Below, piece after piece: positions 39,273 through 48,585 of a DNA stretch of 64,000 nt; the first letter of the stretch is position 1, and every line of letters begins with the position of its first letter. Source of the stretch: a bacterium (GTDB lineage: Bacteria > UBP6 > JAFGXH01); the NCBI GenBank assembly GCA_027064085.1, contig JAMOQH010000157.1:17343-81342 (forward strand), given 5' to 3'. The translations under genes and the position numbers were made by a program. The notes beneath the pieces were generated by a model that made no database searches, was not told the origin of the DNA, and saw only the letters and a program-made list of their open reading frames with translations.

Positions 39273-41633
39273 TTAAAACCAGTTGTTATATATCATGTTT
39301 ATCCCAAAAAATAGATTATATGAATAAGACCAATTTTTTTCTTTTTCTTTATAAGCATAAGAATCTATTTTTGTAGAAAAATGAAAAAATCCTAATATTG
39401 GAATATTTATATTAAATAAAAAATTTGCTATATTTGTTTGATTAAATCCAAGGAAATAATCAAGTTTAGATGTTATTTTAATTGGAATATCTAAACTTTT
39501 AATTTCATAGTTGTTTAAGTTATATCCAATAATTGAACCTAATAAAATATCATCATCTTTTCTGAAATCTTTAGAACCTTGTAAGCCTAGTTTAAATTCA
39601 AATTTATTATCAGAAGAAAGAAATGATATTCCACTTGAGAAAAATAATTCAAAATAGTGTTTTTCTTCTATTTTGGGTTTTGTCAATTCACTGTTAAGTT
39701 TACTTTCTAAAAATGGAAGTGGGATTAATATGTTATTCTGATTATTTATTTTAAAGTAATTACTTTTGTAATTAAAAGCATAACTTATTGTGTCATTACT
39801 TTCCATAAATTCAGTATTATTTTCATTAGATTGATAGTAATGTAATTCAAATCTATTTTCAATTATATGATATTTAGAACTTCCAATAAGATTAATATTT
39901 GAATCTAGTTTTAATAATTCTGTTGGAGTTGTATCAAATCTAGGCTTACTATATACGGAGTCATTGGATACATCATTTTTTATATAGTAGATTCCTAAAT
40001 TACTATAAAATTCCCATAAAAACCTTTTAGATAAGTCTTCAAATTCAATACTAGGATTAAAAAAAGAGTTTTTCTTTTTAAATTTTTCTTTTTTTAAATA
40101 ATTTTTAAATATGTTTTTTATTCTACCATAATACTTCTTCTTTTTAATAAAAAATTCATCTTTAAAAAATCCATCACCACCATTTACAATAAATTCAGTT
40201 GTTACTACTTTGTATTTTTTTTTATCAATAATATTACGGCCATTAATTTTAATATTTTTGCCAAAATTTATATTTGTAAAAAGGAGTTTATTTTTATTTT
40301 TTTTTAAGAATTTTTTTAGTAATTTTCCTTTTATTCTGAAACTTGCGATTTTATTGTTATAAGTGATCGATTTTTCTATAGTATCGTATGTGAGTTTATT
40401 TATAGGGAAAGGTTTATTATTGAAATTACCTTCATTAATCATAGCTATTTCACTGTTTGTTTTCATAATCATTAATTTTAAAATAAAACTATAAAATGTT
40501 TTAAAAGAAAGAGATTTTATCTTCATATTATTTATAGGTAAATCATATTTTTTAAAATACTGTTTTCTATAGTTTTCTAAGATTTTTTTAAAAATAATGG
40601 AAACTTTTGATTTGTATTTAAATTTCTTGTTTAAATTTTCAATATTTTTTATTTGAAATTTATTATTTATCTTTTTGATTTTTAATAGTAATAAATTAGG
40701 GGTATATCTATCAGGATTTGCTCCTATTATATAGATGTCATTATTATATCTTCTTATTAACCTTGTGTTTTCAGCATTACTAATTATTAAATCTATATTT
40801 TTTAATTTTTCAGATAAATTCATTGTTTTTTTAGGAGAAGTCTCCTTGTCTTCTACCTGAGCTAAAAGAATAATTACATCAACGCCCTTTTTTTCTTTTA
40901 AATATTTTGCTAGTTTATTAGTTTGCTTTATTTCTGGTAAAATATTCATATTTTTAATAGATTTATAAAATGCTTTTTTCATAATAGTATGTGAAACGAC
41001 TGAAATTATTCCAATTTTTACATTATTTATTTTAAGAATTCTGTATTTTCTGTTTTTAGTTAATTTACAAAGTGGTAAATTTTGAGAATTAGTGCAATTC
41101 ATATTTGATGATAAAAACGGAAGGCTCATAATTTTTTTATTTTGAGATAGTTTTTTCATTATATTATAGGGAGTATAAAAATCCTTTTTTCCTATATTTA
41201 TTATGTCAAAATTATTTTCTTTAAGTAATGAATATACAAAATCTATGCCTTTAGGTTGTTGTAATAAAAACTTAATTGAAATACTTGGCCAAAAACTTGC
41301 TCCGTTATTTAGAGTAATAGGTTTTTCCCAGTTATTAATTAGAGGTAATATATTTTGGTAATATTTTATTTTTCCGAGTAGGTTATAGTAGCTATTTTTT
41401 TGAGTTTTATCTATGTTTATAAAACGGCCTTCAAAATCGGATATATATATAATGGGTATATTTATTATTTTTTCTTTTTCTCCCCTAGCTTGAGTTGTTA
41501 TTCCCGTAGAATAAGGTATCGCCTTATCCATACTATGATCAGGAGATTTAGAAATTTGATGTGTTACATCACTATTGGGTAAAGCCCAAACTATAATATT
41601 TAATAAAAACAAACTGATTACTAGTTTTATCAT
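39273..41633 (-). CDS. UshA/5'-nucleotidase-like protein with lost metal site and C-terminal barrel-like extension
   Basis: 786 aa from the ATG at 41633 (AGAGG 5 nt upstream). Signal peptide, then a metallophosphatase-like domain in which the metal motifs are degraded: DxHG is DFEG (YISDFEGRF), the GD motif is NGAS, GNHEFD is GKKDF, the single H is Q (IILLAQ) and GHxH is NAEN. A 5'-nucleotidase C-terminal-like domain follows (LINEG-like INEGNFNN, YDTIEKSITYNN, VNGGDGFF), missing the usual Arg. The last 260 residues look like amphipathic strands ending in YNNWF, as in outer-membrane barrels. Likely a non-enzymatic periplasmic or outer-membrane protein. It follows the amidotransferase-like gene by 10 bases. 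Confidence 0.72.
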   Translation of the reverse strand: MIKLVISLFLLNIIVWALPNSDVTHQISKSPDHSMDKAIPYSTGITTQARGEKEKIINIPIIYISDFEGRFINIDKTQKNSYYNLLGKIKYYQNILPLINNWEKPITLNNGASFWPSISIKFLLQQPKGIDFVYSLLKENNFDIINIGKKDFYTPYNIMKKLSQNKKIMSLPFLSSNMNCTNSQNLPLCKLTKNRKYRILKINNVKIGIISVVSHTIMKKAFYKSIKNMNILPEIKQTNKLAKYLKEKKGVDVIILLAQVEDKETSPKKTMNLSEKLKNIDLIISNAENTRLIRRYNNDIYIIGANPDRYTPNLLLLKIKKINNKFQIKNIENLNKKFKYKSKVSIIFKKILENYRKQYFKKYDLPINNMKIKSLSFKTFYSFILKLMIMKTNSEIAMINEGNFNNKPFPINKLTYDTIEKSITYNNKIASFRIKGKLLKKFLKKNKNKLLFTNINFGKNIKINGRNIIDKKKYKVVTTEFIVNGGDGFFKDEFFIKKKKYYGRIKNIFKNYLKKEKFKKKNSFFNPSIEFEDLSKRFLWEFYSNLGIYYIKNDVSNDSVYSKPRFDTTPTELLKLDSNINLIGSSKYHIIENRFELHYYQSNENNTEFMESNDTISYAFNYKSNYFKINNQNNILIPLPFLESKLNSELTKPKIEEKHYFELFFSSGISFLSSDNKFEFKLGLQGSKDFRKDDDILLGSIIGYNLNNYEIKSLDIPIKITSKLDYFLGFNQTNIANFLFNINIPILGFFHFSTKIDSYAYKEKEKNWSYSYNLFFGINMIYNNWF

Positions 41634-41643
41634 AAAAACCTCT

Positions 41644-43905
41644 TTAAATTTTATATCTTTTAATGTATATTTCAAGTAAAAATAATAGTATTAATAACAA
41701 TAACATATAAACATTATCCCAAATAGGAACATATTTTTTTTCTGTAATTTCTGAGATTAATTTTTTAATTTTAATTTTACTTGCACTTTCATCATAACTT
41801 AGTATTTTAATATTCTGATATTTTGATATTTCTGATAAAAACTTTTTATTAATTTGTGGATTGTCAAATTCTTTGGATTTATCTTTAACAATAAACATAC
41901 TGTAACTATTTTCTAACAACTTGCCTTTTAGATAAGTTTTAAATTCTATTTTATATCTTCCATTTTTCTTAATTTTTTCTAATATTTGGGCTGTTCCAGA
42001 ATTGTCTAGTTTTACTTCTTTTTTTATTAAAAACTTGTCATTGTCAATATTTGTTATTTGATAATATAGTTTATTATTTTTTAATGGATTATAGTGGTAG
42101 TCATATGCTTTAATTAAAATGGATAAAGTTTCCTTTTTAGAAATGATGTTAGCATCAAATGACACTTTGATTAATTTCATATCAGGGTCTTTAATTAACC
42201 ATTTTATTGCTTTATCCCAAAAATAACTATATATTTGCTTATGGGTAATATCTATTAATTTATGAAAATTCCAAGTCCATTGGCTATCTGTTGTAATTGC
42301 CATTGTTCTTCCGTTTCCTGATTGTATAGTTGCTATTAAGGGATAAGTTTTATTGTTACATACTTTATCTGTTTTAGCAATTAAAGTTGCTGTTGGTTTT
42401 AATGTCGTTTTATTGAAACCCTCTGATAATGGTAAGCCTGCTAAAGCAGATTTTTGTTTTTTATAGTTGTTTGCAAACTTAAAGAATGGAGAGTCTAAAC
42501 CATTTTTAGTTATTTTATAATGTGTATTTTTATAACAAATACTATCTTTTGCTGATTTTGAGCTTAAATTAACGGGTAAAATATCTTCTATTGGAGTGCC
42601 TTTATAGCCTCCTGCAGTAAAGGAATTTAGGCCTCCTATCATAACAAGTCCACCACCTCTTTTAGTAACAAAATCTTTAATATTTTGTAGATATGGTGAT
42701 ATTCCATAGGGAGCGTAATTAAAATTTTGTAAAATAATTAAATCAAAACTATTTAATCTATCATAAAATAATTCGTGTGCAGGAAAGGGTATAAGAGATA
42801 GTTCTCTTTCAGGTACTAAATATACATCATTAGTTGTTCTTAAAATAAAAAATGATACCAAATCAACATCTGGATGATTTTTTAATAATTGCCTCATAAA
42901 TCTAACATCCCAACTAGGTTTTCCAACAACTTGTACAACTCTTATTTTATCTCTTATTACATTAATTATAAAATCTTTTTTATTATTAATTAGTAACTCT
43001 TCATTCTTTTCAGGTGGAATAATTACCGTGTATATGTATGTTCCCACATTTTTAGGTTTAAATTTAAATGAAATTTTAATGTTTTTATTATCACTTAAAG
43101 AAACAGTTTTTCTATCAATAATTTCTTTATTTCTATACAGAAATACTTTTTTATTTATATTTTTATATCCAATAGATGATATTTCTAAGTCTATTGAAGT
43201 TGTATTTTGTACAAAAGCATAGCTATCATATTGTATTTTTTTAATGAAGATATCTTTTGTAGTCTTAATTTGTGGTAATATTAAGTTTAAGGGAATTTTA
43301 TTTTTTATTAATTTTCTTATTATACCCGTTGAGCTTGTTAATTTTTCATCTGTATCAATAAAATCAGATGCTATTATTATTGAGGATATTTCATTTATTG
43401 TATGATTTTGTAAAAATTTATTTAATGAATATCTTATTCTTGTTTCATCATCTATTGGAGTAATCTTATGTTTATTATCAATTGCTTTAAGAGTTGTTCC
43501 AATACTATAAAAGATTGTATTGTATTCTTTTCTTAATTTATCAATTATAATTTTATTATTTTTAAAAAAATAATTTAAATTTTGAAACCTATTATTTTCT
43601 GTATTTTTCAGAGGGAGGGTTAATGATTTAGAGGTATCTTTAAAGAAAAATATTGATTTTTTACCTTTATTAAATTTAACATACTCTAAAGATGGTTCTA
43701 AAAAAATAAAAAGCATTAATAGTAACAGTAGTGATCTAATGGACAATAATAAAATTCTTTTTTTAGGTAGTTTTAGATAACTATATATACTAAAAATAAT
43801 AATACCCAAAAATCCAATATATATAAAAATATTTATTGGAGATAAATTTAAATTTAAAAATGTAAATTTATTATATGCAAATTCACTTAATATTTTACTA
43901 TTCAT
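41644..43905 (-). CDS. inner-membrane protein with VWA-like and glutamine-amidotransferase-like domains
   Basis: 753 aa. Two N-terminal membrane segments (IFIYIGFLGIIIFSIYSYL; ILLLSIRSLLLLLMLFIFLE) precede a degraded VWA-like domain (KSIFFFKDTSKSL; SSIIIASDFIDTDE). A beta-sandwich region follows. Next comes a class I amidotransferase-like (GATase1-like) domain: VVQVVGKPSWDVRFMRQLL, FDLIILQNF, GGGLVMIGGLNSFTAGGY. A final membrane helix (VYMLLLLILLFLLEIYI) ends the protein. The catalytic Cys of GATases is absent. Such proteins occur in MoxR/VWA/DUF58 clusters together with DUF4159, the next gene upstream, which overlaps by 4 bases. Confidence 0.8.
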   Translation of the reverse strand: MNSKILSEFAYNKFTFLNLNLSPINIFIYIGFLGIIIFSIYSYLKLPKKRILLLSIRSLLLLLMLFIFLEPSLEYVKFNKGKKSIFFFKDTSKSLTLPLKNTENNRFQNLNYFFKNNKIIIDKLRKEYNTIFYSIGTTLKAIDNKHKITPIDDETRIRYSLNKFLQNHTINEISSIIIASDFIDTDEKLTSSTGIIRKLIKNKIPLNLILPQIKTTKDIFIKKIQYDSYAFVQNTTSIDLEISSIGYKNINKKVFLYRNKEIIDRKTVSLSDNKNIKISFKFKPKNVGTYIYTVIIPPEKNEELLINNKKDFIINVIRDKIRVVQVVGKPSWDVRFMRQLLKNHPDVDLVSFFILRTTNDVYLVPERELSLIPFPAHELFYDRLNSFDLIILQNFNYAPYGISPYLQNIKDFVTKRGGGLVMIGGLNSFTAGGYKGTPIEDILPVNLSSKSAKDSICYKNTHYKITKNGLDSPFFKFANNYKKQKSALAGLPLSEGFNKTTLKPTATLIAKTDKVCNNKTYPLIATIQSGNGRTMAITTDSQWTWNFHKLIDITHKQIYSYFWDKAIKWLIKDPDMKLIKVSFDANIISKKETLSILIKAYDYHYNPLKNNKLYYQITNIDNDKFLIKKEVKLDNSGTAQILEKIKKNGRYKIEFKTYLKGKLLENSYSMFIVKDKSKEFDNPQINKKFLSEISKYQNIKILSYDESASKIKIKKLISEITEKKYVPIWDNVYMLLLLILLFLLEIYIKRYKI

Positions 43906-44639
43906 CGTCTATTCTTCAATAAATAATCTACATGAACTTGGTCTGCCTTGTAAGCTAAACAAGTTGCATACATAATTATATTAACCCCTGTTCTGTAGGC
44001 CATTTCCCTTGTTTTATTTCCTTCAGGAACCGAGTATTTCCAGTTACTAAAATCATCTACTGTGAGTGCTCCTATTATATCATTCTTGGAATATAATATT
44101 TCTATTCTGTTGTCTTCTTCTATTATATAAAAATTTGAGCTTATATTTAATCTTCCATATGGTTTATCAAGCAAGTTAAATGTTCTGTAAATAACATGAT
44201 CTTTAGGAGCTATTTTTAATTTCTTTTTAGGATATAAGCTCTCAATTAAATTTTCTATAGATTTATTAAATGTTCCACTTGCTTCATCACTTGCAGAGTC
44301 AATAAAGAGCAAACCCCCAAAAGTTAAATAATTTTTTAAATTTTTAATTTCTGTTTTTGATAGTGAAAATTTTTTATCACCTGTTAAAAATAAAAGAGGA
44401 TGTTTAAACAGTTTCTTTTTATTTTTTAAATCTATATCAATAATATCAAAAGAAACTTCAATACTTGTTCTTTTAGAAACTTCCCAAAGCATTTTTTTTA
44501 AACCACTGTTTCTAAAGTTGTAATTTCCAGAATATTTTAAAATCCCAATTTCTAGAAATGATGATTTTCCTATTGCTTTTAGTGATTGTGAAAAAAATGG
44601 AATTGATAAAATAGATAAAATAAATTGTTTTCTATTCAC
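43902..44639 (-). CDS. DUF4159-domain protein with Tat-like signal
   Basis: 245 aa. The N-terminus MNRKQFILSILSIPFF looks like a Tat signal with RK in place of RR (consensus SRRxFLK). The DUF4159 core follows: LFKHPLLFLTGDKKFSLSKT, LKNYLTFGGLLFIDSASDE, DHVIYRTFNLLDKPYGR and FSNWKYSVPEGNKTREMAYRTG with VNIIMYATC. DUF4159 is a GATase-like domain of unknown function, typically linked to MoxR/VWA operons. It lies 2 bases after tatA and overlaps the next gene by 4 bases. Confidence 0.85.
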   Translation of the reverse strand: MNRKQFILSILSIPFFSQSLKAIGKSSFLEIGILKYSGNYNFRNSGLKKMLWEVSKRTSIEVSFDIIDIDLKNKKKLFKHPLLFLTGDKKFSLSKTEIKNLKNYLTFGGLLFIDSASDEASGTFNKSIENLIESLYPKKKLKIAPKDHVIYRTFNLLDKPYGRLNISSNFYIIEEDNRIEILYSKNDIIGALTVDDFSNWKYSVPEGNKTREMAYRTGVNIIMYATCLAYKADQVHVDYLLKNRR

Positions 44640-44641
44640 TT

Positions 44642-44881
44642 TTATGATTCACTGTTTTCATTTAATTGTTTGTTTGATTCAGAGGTTGCCAATACTTTTT
44701 TTTCTTCACTTTCTTCTTTTTTATCATCATCGGTAACACCTTTTTTAAATTCTTTTATACCTTTACCAAAACCACCCATTAATTTAGGGATTTTACTTCC
44801 TCCAAAAATAACTAAAACGATAAATAGAACTATTAGTAATTCTGGTGTTGAGGGCATTGCAAGTAATATATTTTGATTCAT
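44642..44881 (-). CDS. tatA: Sec-independent protein translocase subunit TatA/E
   Basis: 79 aa. Short periplasmic N-terminus, one transmembrane helix ([19 protein letters not shown]), the hinge GGSKIPKL and the amphipathic helix [14 protein letters not shown], then an acidic/polar tail rich in Ser/Glu. Pore-forming component of the twin-arginine pathway, which exports folded, cofactor-bearing proteins. tatC is not in the window. First gene of the unit tatA-DUF4159-amidotransferase-like-UshA-like. Confidence 0.93.
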
Positions 44882-44944: not shown

Positions 44945-46519
44945 CTACTGTTCAATATAATCTTCTTCTACTAGTTTGTCTAAAATAGCATAGGTTTCTT
45001 CTTCTGATAGTTCTGTATTTTCTATAATTTCAGATATAGAACTGAAGTTATGAACAAGTTGTAAAACTTTGAGTTCATTTTTATTTAGCTCATCAAGAGG
45101 ACTAAAAAGTGGCAACGGAAGAATATATTCATCATCCAAAGGAAATTTTTCTTTTAACTCGTCTATATTTATTTCTGTTTTATTTTCTTCTTCAACTAAG
45201 TCACTACTTACTGCATTTGAATTTTCTTCACTAAGTTTATTAGGTAAACTATCATGTTCTGAAATAATTTCCTTAGGCACATCATCTAAATCATCAAGAG
45301 CAAAATCATTATCGTCATCGTCTAAATCATCAAGGTTGAAGTCATCATTTTTAGGCTTTGCTGTTTTTTGAGCATCGTCATCTAAATCATCAAGAGCAAA
45401 ATCATTATCGTCATCGTCTAAATCATCAAGGTTGAAGTCATCATTTTTAGGCTTTGCTGTTTTTTGAGCATCGTCATCTAAATCATCAAGAGCAAAATCA
45501 TCATCGTCATCTTCTAAATCATCAAGGTTGAAGTCATCATTTTTAGGCTTTGCTGTTTCTTGAGCATCGTCATCTAAATCATCAAGAGCAAAATCATCAT
45601 CGTCATCTTCTAAATCATCAAGGTTGAAGTCATCATTTTTAGGCTTTGCTGTTTCTTGAGCATCGTCATCTAAGTCATCAAGAGCAAAATCATCATCTTC
45701 TAAATCATCAAGAGCGAAGATATCATCTTCAGCATCTATGTTTTCATCGTTAAAGTCGTCTAAGCTAAGAATGTCCTCCGAATCGTCAACATTAACACTT
45801 ATTTCATCAAAACTATCTAGCATTAAATCATCGTCATCTTCTTCTAATTCAAAGTCTAGGTCATCTAAACCAACTTCATCTTCGTACTTTGCAGCTTCAA
45901 GGAGGAATGCATCTAAACTAATATTTAATCTATTTCCAAAATCACTAGGATCTTTTTGTTCAAATTCAAAAAAACCAGAATCAAGCTTTATGAGCTTGAT
46001 AAGTATTTTCTTAGGTTCTGCATTACTACTAGTCATAATAATATCTTTAAAGATTCCTTGAACTAATTGTATTTCAGCAGAAATAGAACCTGAAGTTATT
46101 CTTAAAACTCCTGTTTTTTTACTAGTTGCAAGTAATTGTAATACTTCTGGAATTGGAATATCCTCAATTGAGCCTGATACTGCATTTGTTCCAATTTTAG
46201 CCGCATCTTCCATATTTTGTCCAGTGTCATCACTATCTATAAACTTGGCAATAGATGTTCCAATTAATATTCTATCATTAAGCTTAAGCTTAATTTTTTT
46301 TATTCTATTACCGTTTACAAAGGTTCCATTGGTAGAGCCCATGTCTTCAAGTATTATATCACTTCCTGATATACTTATTTTTGCATGTTTTCTTGATACC
46401 ATATCTTCAGAGAGAACCATTTCTAAATCACTGTGACGCCCAATAACAATTACATTTTTGTCTAATGGAAATTCACCACCTTTATATTTACCCGAAATAA
46501 ACTTAAACATTAAAGCCAT
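44945..46519 (-). CDS. FHA-DUF4388 signalling protein with acidic tandem repeats
   Basis: 524 aa. FHA phosphothreonine-binding domain (about 8-95) with IGRHSDLEM, SRKH and GSTNGTFVNG. DUF4388 domain (about 115-205; GSIEDIPIPEVLQLLATSKKTGVL). An extremely Asp-rich linker (about 215-410) contains four 32-residue tandem repeats (FALDDLDDD, AQETAKPK, NDDFNLDDLEDD). The C-terminal winged-helix-like domain (about 465-524) has LNKNELKVLQLV and SEEETYAILDKLVEEDYI. FHA-DUF4388 proteins are typical of myxobacteria and relatives and partner Ser/Thr kinases; none is seen here. AGAGG precedes the ATG. Confidence 0.88.
   Translation of the reverse strand: MALMFKFISGKYKGGEFPLDKNVIVIGRHSDLEMVLSEDMVSRKHAKISISGSDIILEDMGSTNGTFVNGNRIKKIKLKLNDRILIGTSIAKFIDSDDTGQNMEDAAKIGTNAVSGSIEDIPIPEVLQLLATSKKTGVLRITSGSISAEIQLVQGIFKDIIMTSSNAEPKKILIKLIKLDSGFFEFEQKDPSDFGNRLNISLDAFLLEAAKYEDEVGLDDLDFELEEDDDDLMLDSFDEISVNVDDSEDILSLDDFNDENIDAEDDIFALDDLEDDDFALDDLDDDAQETAKPKNDDFNLDDLEDDDDDFALDDLDDDAQETAKPKNDDFNLDDLEDDDDDFALDDLDDDAQKTAKPKNDDFNLDDLDDDDNDFALDDLDDDAQKTAKPKNDDFNLDDLDDDDNDFALDDLDDVPKEIISEHDSLPNKLSEENSNAVSSDLVEEENKTEINIDELKEKFPLDDEYILPLPLFSPLDELNKNELKVLQLVHNFSSISEIIENTELSEEETYAILDKLVEEDYIEQ
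45285..45700 (-). repeat. 96-base tandem repeat inside the FHA-DUF4388 gene
   Basis: Four near-identical 96-base units; the marker TTAGGCTTTG recurs at 45351, 45447, 45543 and 45639. They encode the Asp-rich linker. Units differ by few bases (two encode AQET, two AQKT), so copy number is probably variable between strains. Confidence 0.9.
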
Positions 46520-46689: not shown

Positions 46690-47523
46690 TTGTCGAATTT
46701 AACAAAAAGAATACTTTCGGCCATTGTTGGCCTAGCATTTGTTGTGGCAGTTTTAGTTTATGGTGAAGCATGGTTATGGAAACTTTTAATTTTACATTTA
46801 ACGATGCTTGGATTAAATGAATTTTTTAAAAATATGGTTACAAATAGGTATCCTAAATACAGTGATTTAAAGTGGATTTCCATTTTTCTAGGAGGTTCAA
46901 TCGCTTCTGTAATATTGTTTTATCCGAAATTTTTAGTAATCCTACCTACTGTTTTTCTTTTGGTTGTGGCTTTATACTTTTTGTTCAATTTTAAAGATAT
47001 GGAAACAGTTATTGAAAGAATGGGGTATTTAGTTTTAGGAATTATTTATATCGCATTTACTTTGCCATACATTGGGGTTATTGTTGATTTTCCTATAAGT
47101 TCTATTAATGGTAAATATTTATTAATTTTAGTTTTTGCAATAACATGGGGTAATGATACTTTTGCTTATACTTTTGGTAGGCTTTTTGGTAAACACAAGC
47201 TATATGAGAAAATGTCTCCAAATAAAACAATTGAGGGGGCTATTGGTGGTTTGTTAGGTGGAACAGGCCTTGCAATTTTAGTTAAAATATTCTTGTTAAA
47301 GGATTTATCTTATTCTGATATTTTACTAGTTGCTCTTTTTGCTGGTGCTTTTGGACAAATGGGAGATTTAGTTGAATCCATGTTTAAAAGATACTTTAAA
47401 ATTAAAGATTCGGGAATGTTTTTACCTGGACATGGAGGAGTTTTAGATAGATTTGATGCAGTAATGTTTAATGCTCCTGTTATTTATTTTTATTTTTTAC
47501 TTACTAAAGGTGGATTATTTTAA
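46690..47523 (+). CDS. cdsA: phosphatidate cytidylyltransferase
   Basis: 277 aa integral membrane enzyme making CDP-diacylglycerol. The complete CTP-transferase signature is present near the C-terminus: SMFKRYFKIKDSG, then MFLPGHGGVLDRFD. SPNKTIEGAIGG and about seven hydrophobic segments precede it. The start is TTG at 46690 with AGGAG 6 nt upstream. Not linked to uppS/dxr here, unlike many bacteria. Its 3' end overlaps the convergent mobBA gene by 9 bases. Confidence 0.95.
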   Translation: MSNLTKRILSAIVGLAFVVAVLVYGEAWLWKLLILHLTMLGLNEFFKNMVTNRYPKYSDLKWISIFLGGSIASVILFYPKFLVILPTVFLLVVALYFLFNFKDMETVIERMGYLVLGIIYIAFTLPYIGVIVDFPISSINGKYLLILVFAITWGNDTFAYTFGRLFGKHKLYEKMSPNKTIEGAIGGLLGGTGLAILVKIFLLKDLSYSDILLVALFAGAFGQMGDLVESMFKRYFKIKDSGMFLPGHGGVLDRFDAVMFNAPVIYFYFLLTKGGLF

Positions 47524-48585
47524 GAGTTTTTTCTTTTCTTCTTGAGTATTTATATTTTTAAATTCACTTGTAAAGTGGTTATCGATTATATTCAACTCTA
47601 ATTCTTTAAATGCATTTTTAATTCCATATCTGTTATTAACAATAGAATTTATTAAAAAGTTAAATGATTTAGGTTCATAAATACCTAAAAGTGGCTCAAA
47701 TTTATACTCCGAGCTAAAAAATGTTCCAAATTTCAAGAAATTTCTATTTTTTATTAACTCATTAAGCATTTTTTCATTTACTAATGGAATATCACAAGCG
47801 ATAACCAAAAAAGCATTCTTTTTATTATTAAAAAATGCACTTGTTATTCCACCAATAGGACCAATTTCTTGGATTTTATCTTTTATTAAATTAAACTTGT
47901 TGTATTCTGGTAAAACGGCTTGTGAAGGGTTTACTGATACAAAAATATTGTTAACAAATGGAGATAATAAATTATATAAAAAATCAACTTGAATTTTACC
48001 ATTATAATCAATCAATCCTTTATCTTCTCCCATTCTTGAACTCTTTCCTCCAACTAAAATAAGGGCATCTAATTTAGTTTTTTTTGAATTAATATTAGTT
48101 ACTATATCATCATAAATTGCATCAATATCATTTCTATTAAAGGTCTTTATATCTTTTAACTTTTTTTCATTATTTACTATCACTCCAAGAAGGTTTTTGT
48201 ATTTATTTAACTTAAAATCAAGGTTTTTCACTTTCTCATAATCAGAAATTAAATATTTAGCAATATTTTCATCTTTGTATCCTTCAATTATCACTATATC
48301 ATATAACAATAATTCTTGCTTAAAAATGGAATAATTTAATGGCTTTTTTGATAAATAAGCTCTTTCTTTAGGGCTAGAAATATAGGCAGAATCAGCTCCT
48401 GCGTGATAAATCCTATAAGTGTCTTTCCCCTCTTTATCCATCTGAAAACCATGAATATCATTTTTAATAAATGCAATGCTATAGGTTTTTGACAATCTTT
48501 TCATTAATTTTTCAATTAAAGTAGTTTTACCACTACCTGAATACCCCGAAAATGCTATTTCAAAGGGATGAAATTTATGATTCAT
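47515..48585 (-). CDS. fused MobB-MobA: molybdenum-cofactor guanylyltransferase with MobB GTPase domain
   Basis: 356 aa, about the sum of MobB and MobA. The N-terminal MobB domain (1-155) has the P-loop GYSGSGKTTLIEKL, DTYRIYHAGAD and DIVIIEGYKDE. The C-terminal MobA domain (about 165-356) has LILVGGKSSRMGEDKG (nucleotide loop), PIGGI and LVIACDIPLV (metal Asp). MobA attaches GMP to molybdopterin to give the bis-MGD cofactor of DMSO-reductase-family enzymes, clients of TorD-type chaperones such as the one at 4722-5267. It trails the rplU-rpmA-obg operon by 25 bases. Confidence 0.92.
   Translation of the reverse strand: MNHKFHPFEIAFSGYSGSGKTTLIEKLMKRLSKTYSIAFIKNDIHGFQMDKEGKDTYRIYHAGADSAYISSPKERAYLSKKPLNYSIFKQELLLYDIVIIEGYKDENIAKYLISDYEKVKNLDFKLNKYKNLLGVIVNNEKKLKDIKTFNRNDIDAIYDDIVTNINSKKTKLDALILVGGKSSRMGEDKGLIDYNGKIQVDFLYNLLSPFVNNIFVSVNPSQAVLPEYNKFNLIKDKIQEIGPIGGITSAFFNNKKNAFLVIACDIPLVNEKMLNELIKNRNFLKFGTFFSSEYKFEPLLGIYEPKSFNFLINSIVNNRYGIKNAFKELELNIIDNHFTSEFKNINTQEEKKKLLK

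Follow-up and report, generated by a model that had tools for sequence, protein, structure and literature searches.

Four genes on the minus strand of the window (the 64,000-nucleotide stretch of bacterial DNA analysed here) lie close together and encode a Tat pore subunit, a DUF4159 protein, a membrane protein with VWA and GATase-like domains, and a UshA-like protein. The first-pass annotation proposed that the MoxR ATPase and DUF58 partners usual for such a DUF4159 protein were missing, and that the Tat subunit and a dead nucleotidase stood in their place. The locus thus raises the question of whether these genes form a new envelope system that works without MoxR or whether they are pieces of a known module beside unrelated neighbours.

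The open reading frame coordinates (Table 1) agree with the packing first described. A gap of 2 nt separates tatA from the DUF4159 gene, the DUF4159 and GATase-like genes overlap by 4 nt, and 10 nt lie between the GATase-like gene and the ATG of the UshA-like gene at 41633; an alternative, longer TTG start extends the last frame to 41675. A GAGG ribosome-binding site precedes this ATG and is also found before tatA and the upstream FHA gene. The DUF4159 and GATase-like genes have no ribosome-binding site, which fits translational coupling. Family searches gave E-values of 4e-37 for DUF4159 (PF13709), 2e-11 for GATase1_like, 2e-12 for 5_nucleotid_C (PF02872) and 5e-14 for TatA_B_E. The promoter scan was uninformative (62 matches vs. 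61.7 expected). The sampled window genes around the cluster were ordinary housekeeping-like genes or belonged to no family. The second half of the FHA/DUF4388 protein contains several near-identical acidic repeats (DDFALDDLDDDAQ...AKPKNDDFNLDDL).

Table 1. Features of the locus; nucleotide positions refer to the window and residue positions to the GATase-like protein
Feature	Position	Strand	Description
UshA-like gene	39273-41633	minus	ATG start; catalytically dead UshA/CD73-like two-domain protein with beta-rich C-terminal domain
GATase-like/VWA gene	41644-43905	minus	inner-membrane protein; GATase1_like
TM1	residues 23-43
TM2	residues 48-68
VWA domain	residues ~81-210
CARDB-like domain	residues 214-319
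GATase1/GIFT-like domain	residues 319-573
Alpha-2-macroglobulin-like domain	residues 578-676
TM3	residues 732-751
DUF4159 gene	43902-44639	minus	GTG start; exported protein with Tat-like NRKQFIL signal; PF13709
tatA	44642-44881	minus	79-aa Tat pore subunit; taken as sole TatA of the genome; TIGR01411
FHA/DUF4388 gene	44945-46519	minus	63 nt upstream of tatA
MobB-MobA-like gene	47515-48585		single gene with N-terminal MobB and MobA-like nucleotidyltransferase domain

Residues ~54-539 of the UshA-like protein have a two-domain fold with Z scores of 20-21 to CD73, NadN, SoxB and UshA. The phosphoesterase motifs with the metal ligands and the catalytic His (NDxHG, GGD, GNHEFD and GHxH) are replaced by SDFEG, NGA, GKKDFY and NAEN, and the metal ligands are similarly replaced in the homologue of the sister-genus genome G001, as compared with active-looking relatives of the same phylum. 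With the metal ligands lost in both proteins, the description of this nucleotidase as dead was borne out. All three parts of the protein are 29-32% identical between the window genus and its sister genus, and identity kept at this level across genera indicates a maintained pseudo-enzyme rather than a decaying gene. In the C-terminal substrate domain the GGDG[FY] loop is still present. The C-terminal ~250 residues show nine long beta strands (~615-780) in a low-confidence model, and the proteins of both genera end in WF; an outer-membrane beta-barrel is plausible for this region. The fold search matched the barrel-like tail to no solved barrel, its lists being taken up by matches to the nucleotidase part. 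In G001 the gene has unrelated neighbours on another contig, and a fragment of it in genome G002 adjoins the same gene that lies downstream of it in G001. We consider it fairly likely that the UshA-like protein acts independently in the outer membrane or at the surface, where it would bind, but not cleave, nucleotides or some other small ligand, and that its gene lies 3' of the pair by accident. The conservation of all three parts, the same catalytic losses in a different neighbourhood and the retained loop argue for this reading; on the other side, ligand binding is putative and the barrel is a low-confidence prediction. It concerns this gene alone and does not conflict with the explanation that we prefer for the others.

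The AlphaFold2 model of the GATase-like protein, built on 25 sequences (mean pLDDT 81), matched 3rht (Z 24.5), 2gk3 (24.3), IFT52 (15.2), OST48 (14.8) and 3idu (14.3). Its VWA domain has an intact MIDAS, with the DxSxS, T and D residues of the motif present as D90-x-S92-x-S94, T155 and D181. Among 47 aligned sequences D90, S94 and D181 are invariant, and T155 and S92 are conserved in 98% and 87%, respectively. The same alignment contains no Cys column; the nucleophile elbow reads GGxxSF, and the protein fails the class I glutamine amidotransferase criterion of a nucleophile Cys at the elbow. As judged from the alignment, loss of the nucleophile is a trait of the family and not a local decay. 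The initial description of a membrane protein with VWA-like and GATase-like domains and no catalytic Cys was therefore correct. The loop between TM1 and TM2 is rich in K/R, which suggests that the VWA domain and the soluble part should face the periplasm. This predicted topology is the same as that of BB0173 of Borrelia, for which three TMs and a periplasmic VWA domain have been shown experimentally (PMC5700661). The partner of the GATase-like protein, the DUF4159 protein, has a homologue of known structure, 4i66 (Hoch_4089), with an E-value of 2e-38. Profile comparison of DUF4159 with the GATase-like domain gave a probability of 5.6%, which is not significant. No experiment on a DUF4159 or GATase-like member was found in the literature searched.

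The conservation of this pair was surveyed across 58 public-genome loci, most of them from Nitrospinota MAGs and some from delta-proteobacterial or myxococcal-like genomes. The GATase-like gene lies directly 3' of the DUF4159 gene in 57 of them; the remaining locus (L096) is cut off by the end of its contig. The complete order MoxR-DUF58-BatA-DUF4159-GATase-like was found in seven distant MAGs (L088, L097, L107, L112, L115, L118 and L120). These results support the earlier statement that the two proteins are companions in MoxR/VWA operons. The public record of a close relative (L069) is labelled Anaeromyxobacter dehalogenans, probably wrongly; its DUF4159 and GATase-like proteins group with the window family. 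The pair lies apart from MoxR and DUF58 in Nitrospinota, where an unlinked operon-type DUF58 was seen in 13 of 14 pair-bearing genomes tested and BatA stood alongside it in 12. Overall, DUF58 was present in 17/17 pair-bearing genomes tested, and most of them had the operon type with BatA. About 20 Nitrospinota loci have nuoA, nuoB, nuoC and nuoD a few kb downstream of the pair (e.g. L083:6506-8846, L078:12481-13110, L124:13911-14264), and this neighbourhood may be a single inherited arrangement within Nitrospinota.

Whole-genome searches found both MoxR and DUF58 in the window genome, and their supposed absence was rejected; they are absent only locally. DUF58 genes are located on contigs C47 and C120, the latter in the order DUF58-BatA-acyltransferase (PlsB-like). 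Three clear MoxR genes are present, of which the C153 gene comes nearest to the operon type: it is 48-55% identical to MoxRs of intact operons, as compared to 42-45% and 33-39% for the other two. The MoxR-DUF58-BatA-DUF4159-GATase-like module is split over three contigs in the window genome. The assembly is fragmented (195 contigs), although each piece of the module sits in the interior of a contig among other genes. The same split into a lone MoxR, DUF58-BatA-acyltransferase and DUF4159-GATase-like was found in G001 and G002, the sole other family members examined. Nothing had been replaced by tatA and the nucleotidase gene; the operon is split. In all three family genomes a PlsB-like glycerol-3-phosphate acyltransferase gene follows DUF58-BatA (L035:5024-10271; L147:1688-6896; L148:1054-6441), an assignment checked against Pfam in the window genome only.

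DUF4159 was absent from the 25 other genomes of the phylum examined. The best DUF58 in those genomes was of another type, a fragment (G003), a weak match (G012) or none at all (G025, 65% complete). Within the phylum, a divergent DUF58 with BatA was found in each of the three genomes with DUF4159 and in no other, so that both blocks occur together or not at all. From these data the pair is probably the periplasmic half of a five-gene MoxR-DUF58-BatA-DUF4159-GATase-like module that has been split in this family, and we propose an envelope-maturation role for it. The MoxR/BatA-type operon that includes the pair is widespread and uncharacterised. Alternatively, the pair might act alone, as periplasmic binding proteins without MoxR, wherever it is unlinked. 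Its separation from MoxR and DUF58 in both Nitrospinota and the window family is in line with such a role, but the DUF58 found in every pair-bearing genome tested and the joint presence or absence of both blocks in the phylum make it unlikely.

The assignment of the first gene as a Tat pore protein held up, since the window TatA scored 63.2 bits with TIGR01411, above the cut-off of 53.9. The whole genome has two TatA_B_E matches, the window tatA and a gene on C172. The C172 gene scored higher with the TatB profile (54.0, just below the cut-off of 56.5) than with the tatAE profile (43.1); because this second match is TatB-like, an extra, dedicated TatA was rejected. The TatC gene is on C126. 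On these profile scores the window tatA is taken as the only TatA of the genome, which would make it a housekeeping gene and not a dedicated part. Among the genomes examined, tatA adjoins DUF4159 only in the window genome. No TatA was detected near DUF4159 in 71 loci (67 distinct), even at an E-value of 1, and Tat genes were found elsewhere in 28/28 named genomes searched. The TatA gene of G002 is at another place, away from the DUF4159-GATase-like pair. No TatA/B match was obtained in any of the six phylum genomes tested that belong to other families (G003, G010, G012, G013, G020 and G024), and Tat may be restricted within the phylum.

The DUF4159 protein had been annotated with a Tat-like signal. 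Its family assignment stood, but the signal reads NRKQFIL (NRK at 44631-44639), with Arg-Lys in place of the Arg-Arg of the Tat consensus used for comparison, S/T-R-R-x-F-L-K. Both sister-genus DUF4159 proteins have RR at this place and start with NRRDFIK and DRRDFIK. A twin-arginine signal was found in the DUF4159 proteins of ten of the 11 non-Nitrospinota relatives (L068, L069, L070, L071, L088, L097, L107, L112, L115 and L118) and was not seen in that of the eleventh, L120; none of the Nitrospinota members has one. In most bacteria one Arg-to-Lys change reportedly makes Tat export slower without blocking it, and just one native cargo carrying a KR motif is named in a review (PMC6708511). 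Tat export of the window DUF4159 protein is not certain with an RK signal, and a native Arg-Lys Tat signal, if true, would be unusual.

These findings bear on the idea that the four genes make up a dedicated new envelope system, in which TatA would export DUF4159, and DUF4159 and the GATase-like protein would bind a ligand and pass it to the pseudo-nucleotidase and its barrel in the outer membrane. The tight packing of the genes and the envelope nature of all four products agree with this idea, as does the resemblance of the GATase-like fold to the GIFT domains of IFT52 and OST48, for which sugar binding has been proposed (PMC7226087). However, none of the 67 distinct DUF4159 loci has a nearby TatA, and the sole TatA of a genome cannot be dedicated. 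When the four genes were followed into relatives, neither tatA nor the pseudo-nucleotidase gene lay with the pair in G001 or G002, but the pair itself was not scattered. A dedicated system is largely refuted by these data, and we regard it as very unlikely. Two oddities are left over: the sole tatA is next to a gene with an Arg-Lys signal, and the pseudo-nucleotidase, with its barrel-like tail, is conserved. Even less credible is the reading that the pair and the sole tatA share one transcript with a native Arg-Lys DUF4159 signal and that the barrel-bearing dead nucleotidase is the outer partner of their complex.

We thus return to the pair as part of a split MoxR module. The two genes that flank it, tatA and the dead nucleotidase gene, look like the outcome of a rearrangement in the genus and not like parts of a new machine. 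Cytoplasmic MoxR with DUF58 would remodel, at the expense of ATP, a client in or at the inner membrane. It would do so by way of two membrane proteins, BatA and the GATase-like protein, whose VWA and GIFT-like domains are predicted to face the periplasm. The exported DUF4159 protein, the soluble periplasmic member, may bind at those domains. The module would serve to mature a complex of the inner membrane or envelope, or to control its quality. In the window genus the housekeeping tatA just upstream of DUF4159 would be co-transcribed with it, and DUF4159 appears to be a Tat-type substrate in most of the non-Nitrospinota relatives. The downstream pseudo-nucleotidase would be a separate envelope protein carried on the same transcript by chance or convenience. 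That the DUF4159 and VWA/GATase-like genes stay paired, and are kept with DUF58-BatA and MoxR despite the break-up of the operon, makes a functional link between them testable, and the notion of a MoxR-free replacement system in the window genome is corrected.

The window system resembles the MoxR-DUF58-BatA (Bacteroides aerotolerance) operons in having the same partners in the genome, namely MoxR, DUF58 and the BatA N-terminal double-TM protein, and both have a three-TM VWA protein with intact MIDAS. The window branch differs in adding DUF4159 and the VWA/GATase-like protein, and in its family the module is split over several contigs, with tatA adjoining in the window genome only. A MoxR ATPase with a VWA partner is also found in RavA-ViaA, which has been proposed to aid complex I maturation and in which RavA forms a MoxR subfamily of its own (PMC3893208). 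The VWA protein of the window system has three TMs and is predicted to face the periplasm. The case for the complex-maturation role suggested above is an analogy with RavA-ViaA, complex I being the precedent for a respiratory complex (PMC3893208), to which the nuo genes near the pair in about 20 Nitrospinota loci may be added. Residues 319-573 of the GATase-like protein share the fold of the GATase1-like proteins 3rht, 2gk3 and 3soz (Z up to 24.5) and of the GIFT domains of IFT52 and OST48/Wbp1 (Z about 15). Unlike in those proteins, the window domain is set among the VWA, CARDB-like and macroglobulin-like domains of a membrane protein, in a family without the nucleophile Cys. Similarly, the UshA-like protein has the two-domain fold of UshA, CD73, NadN and SoxB (residues 54-539, Z about 20), but it lacks the metallophosphatase ligands and carries an extra beta-rich C-terminal domain of about 250 residues.
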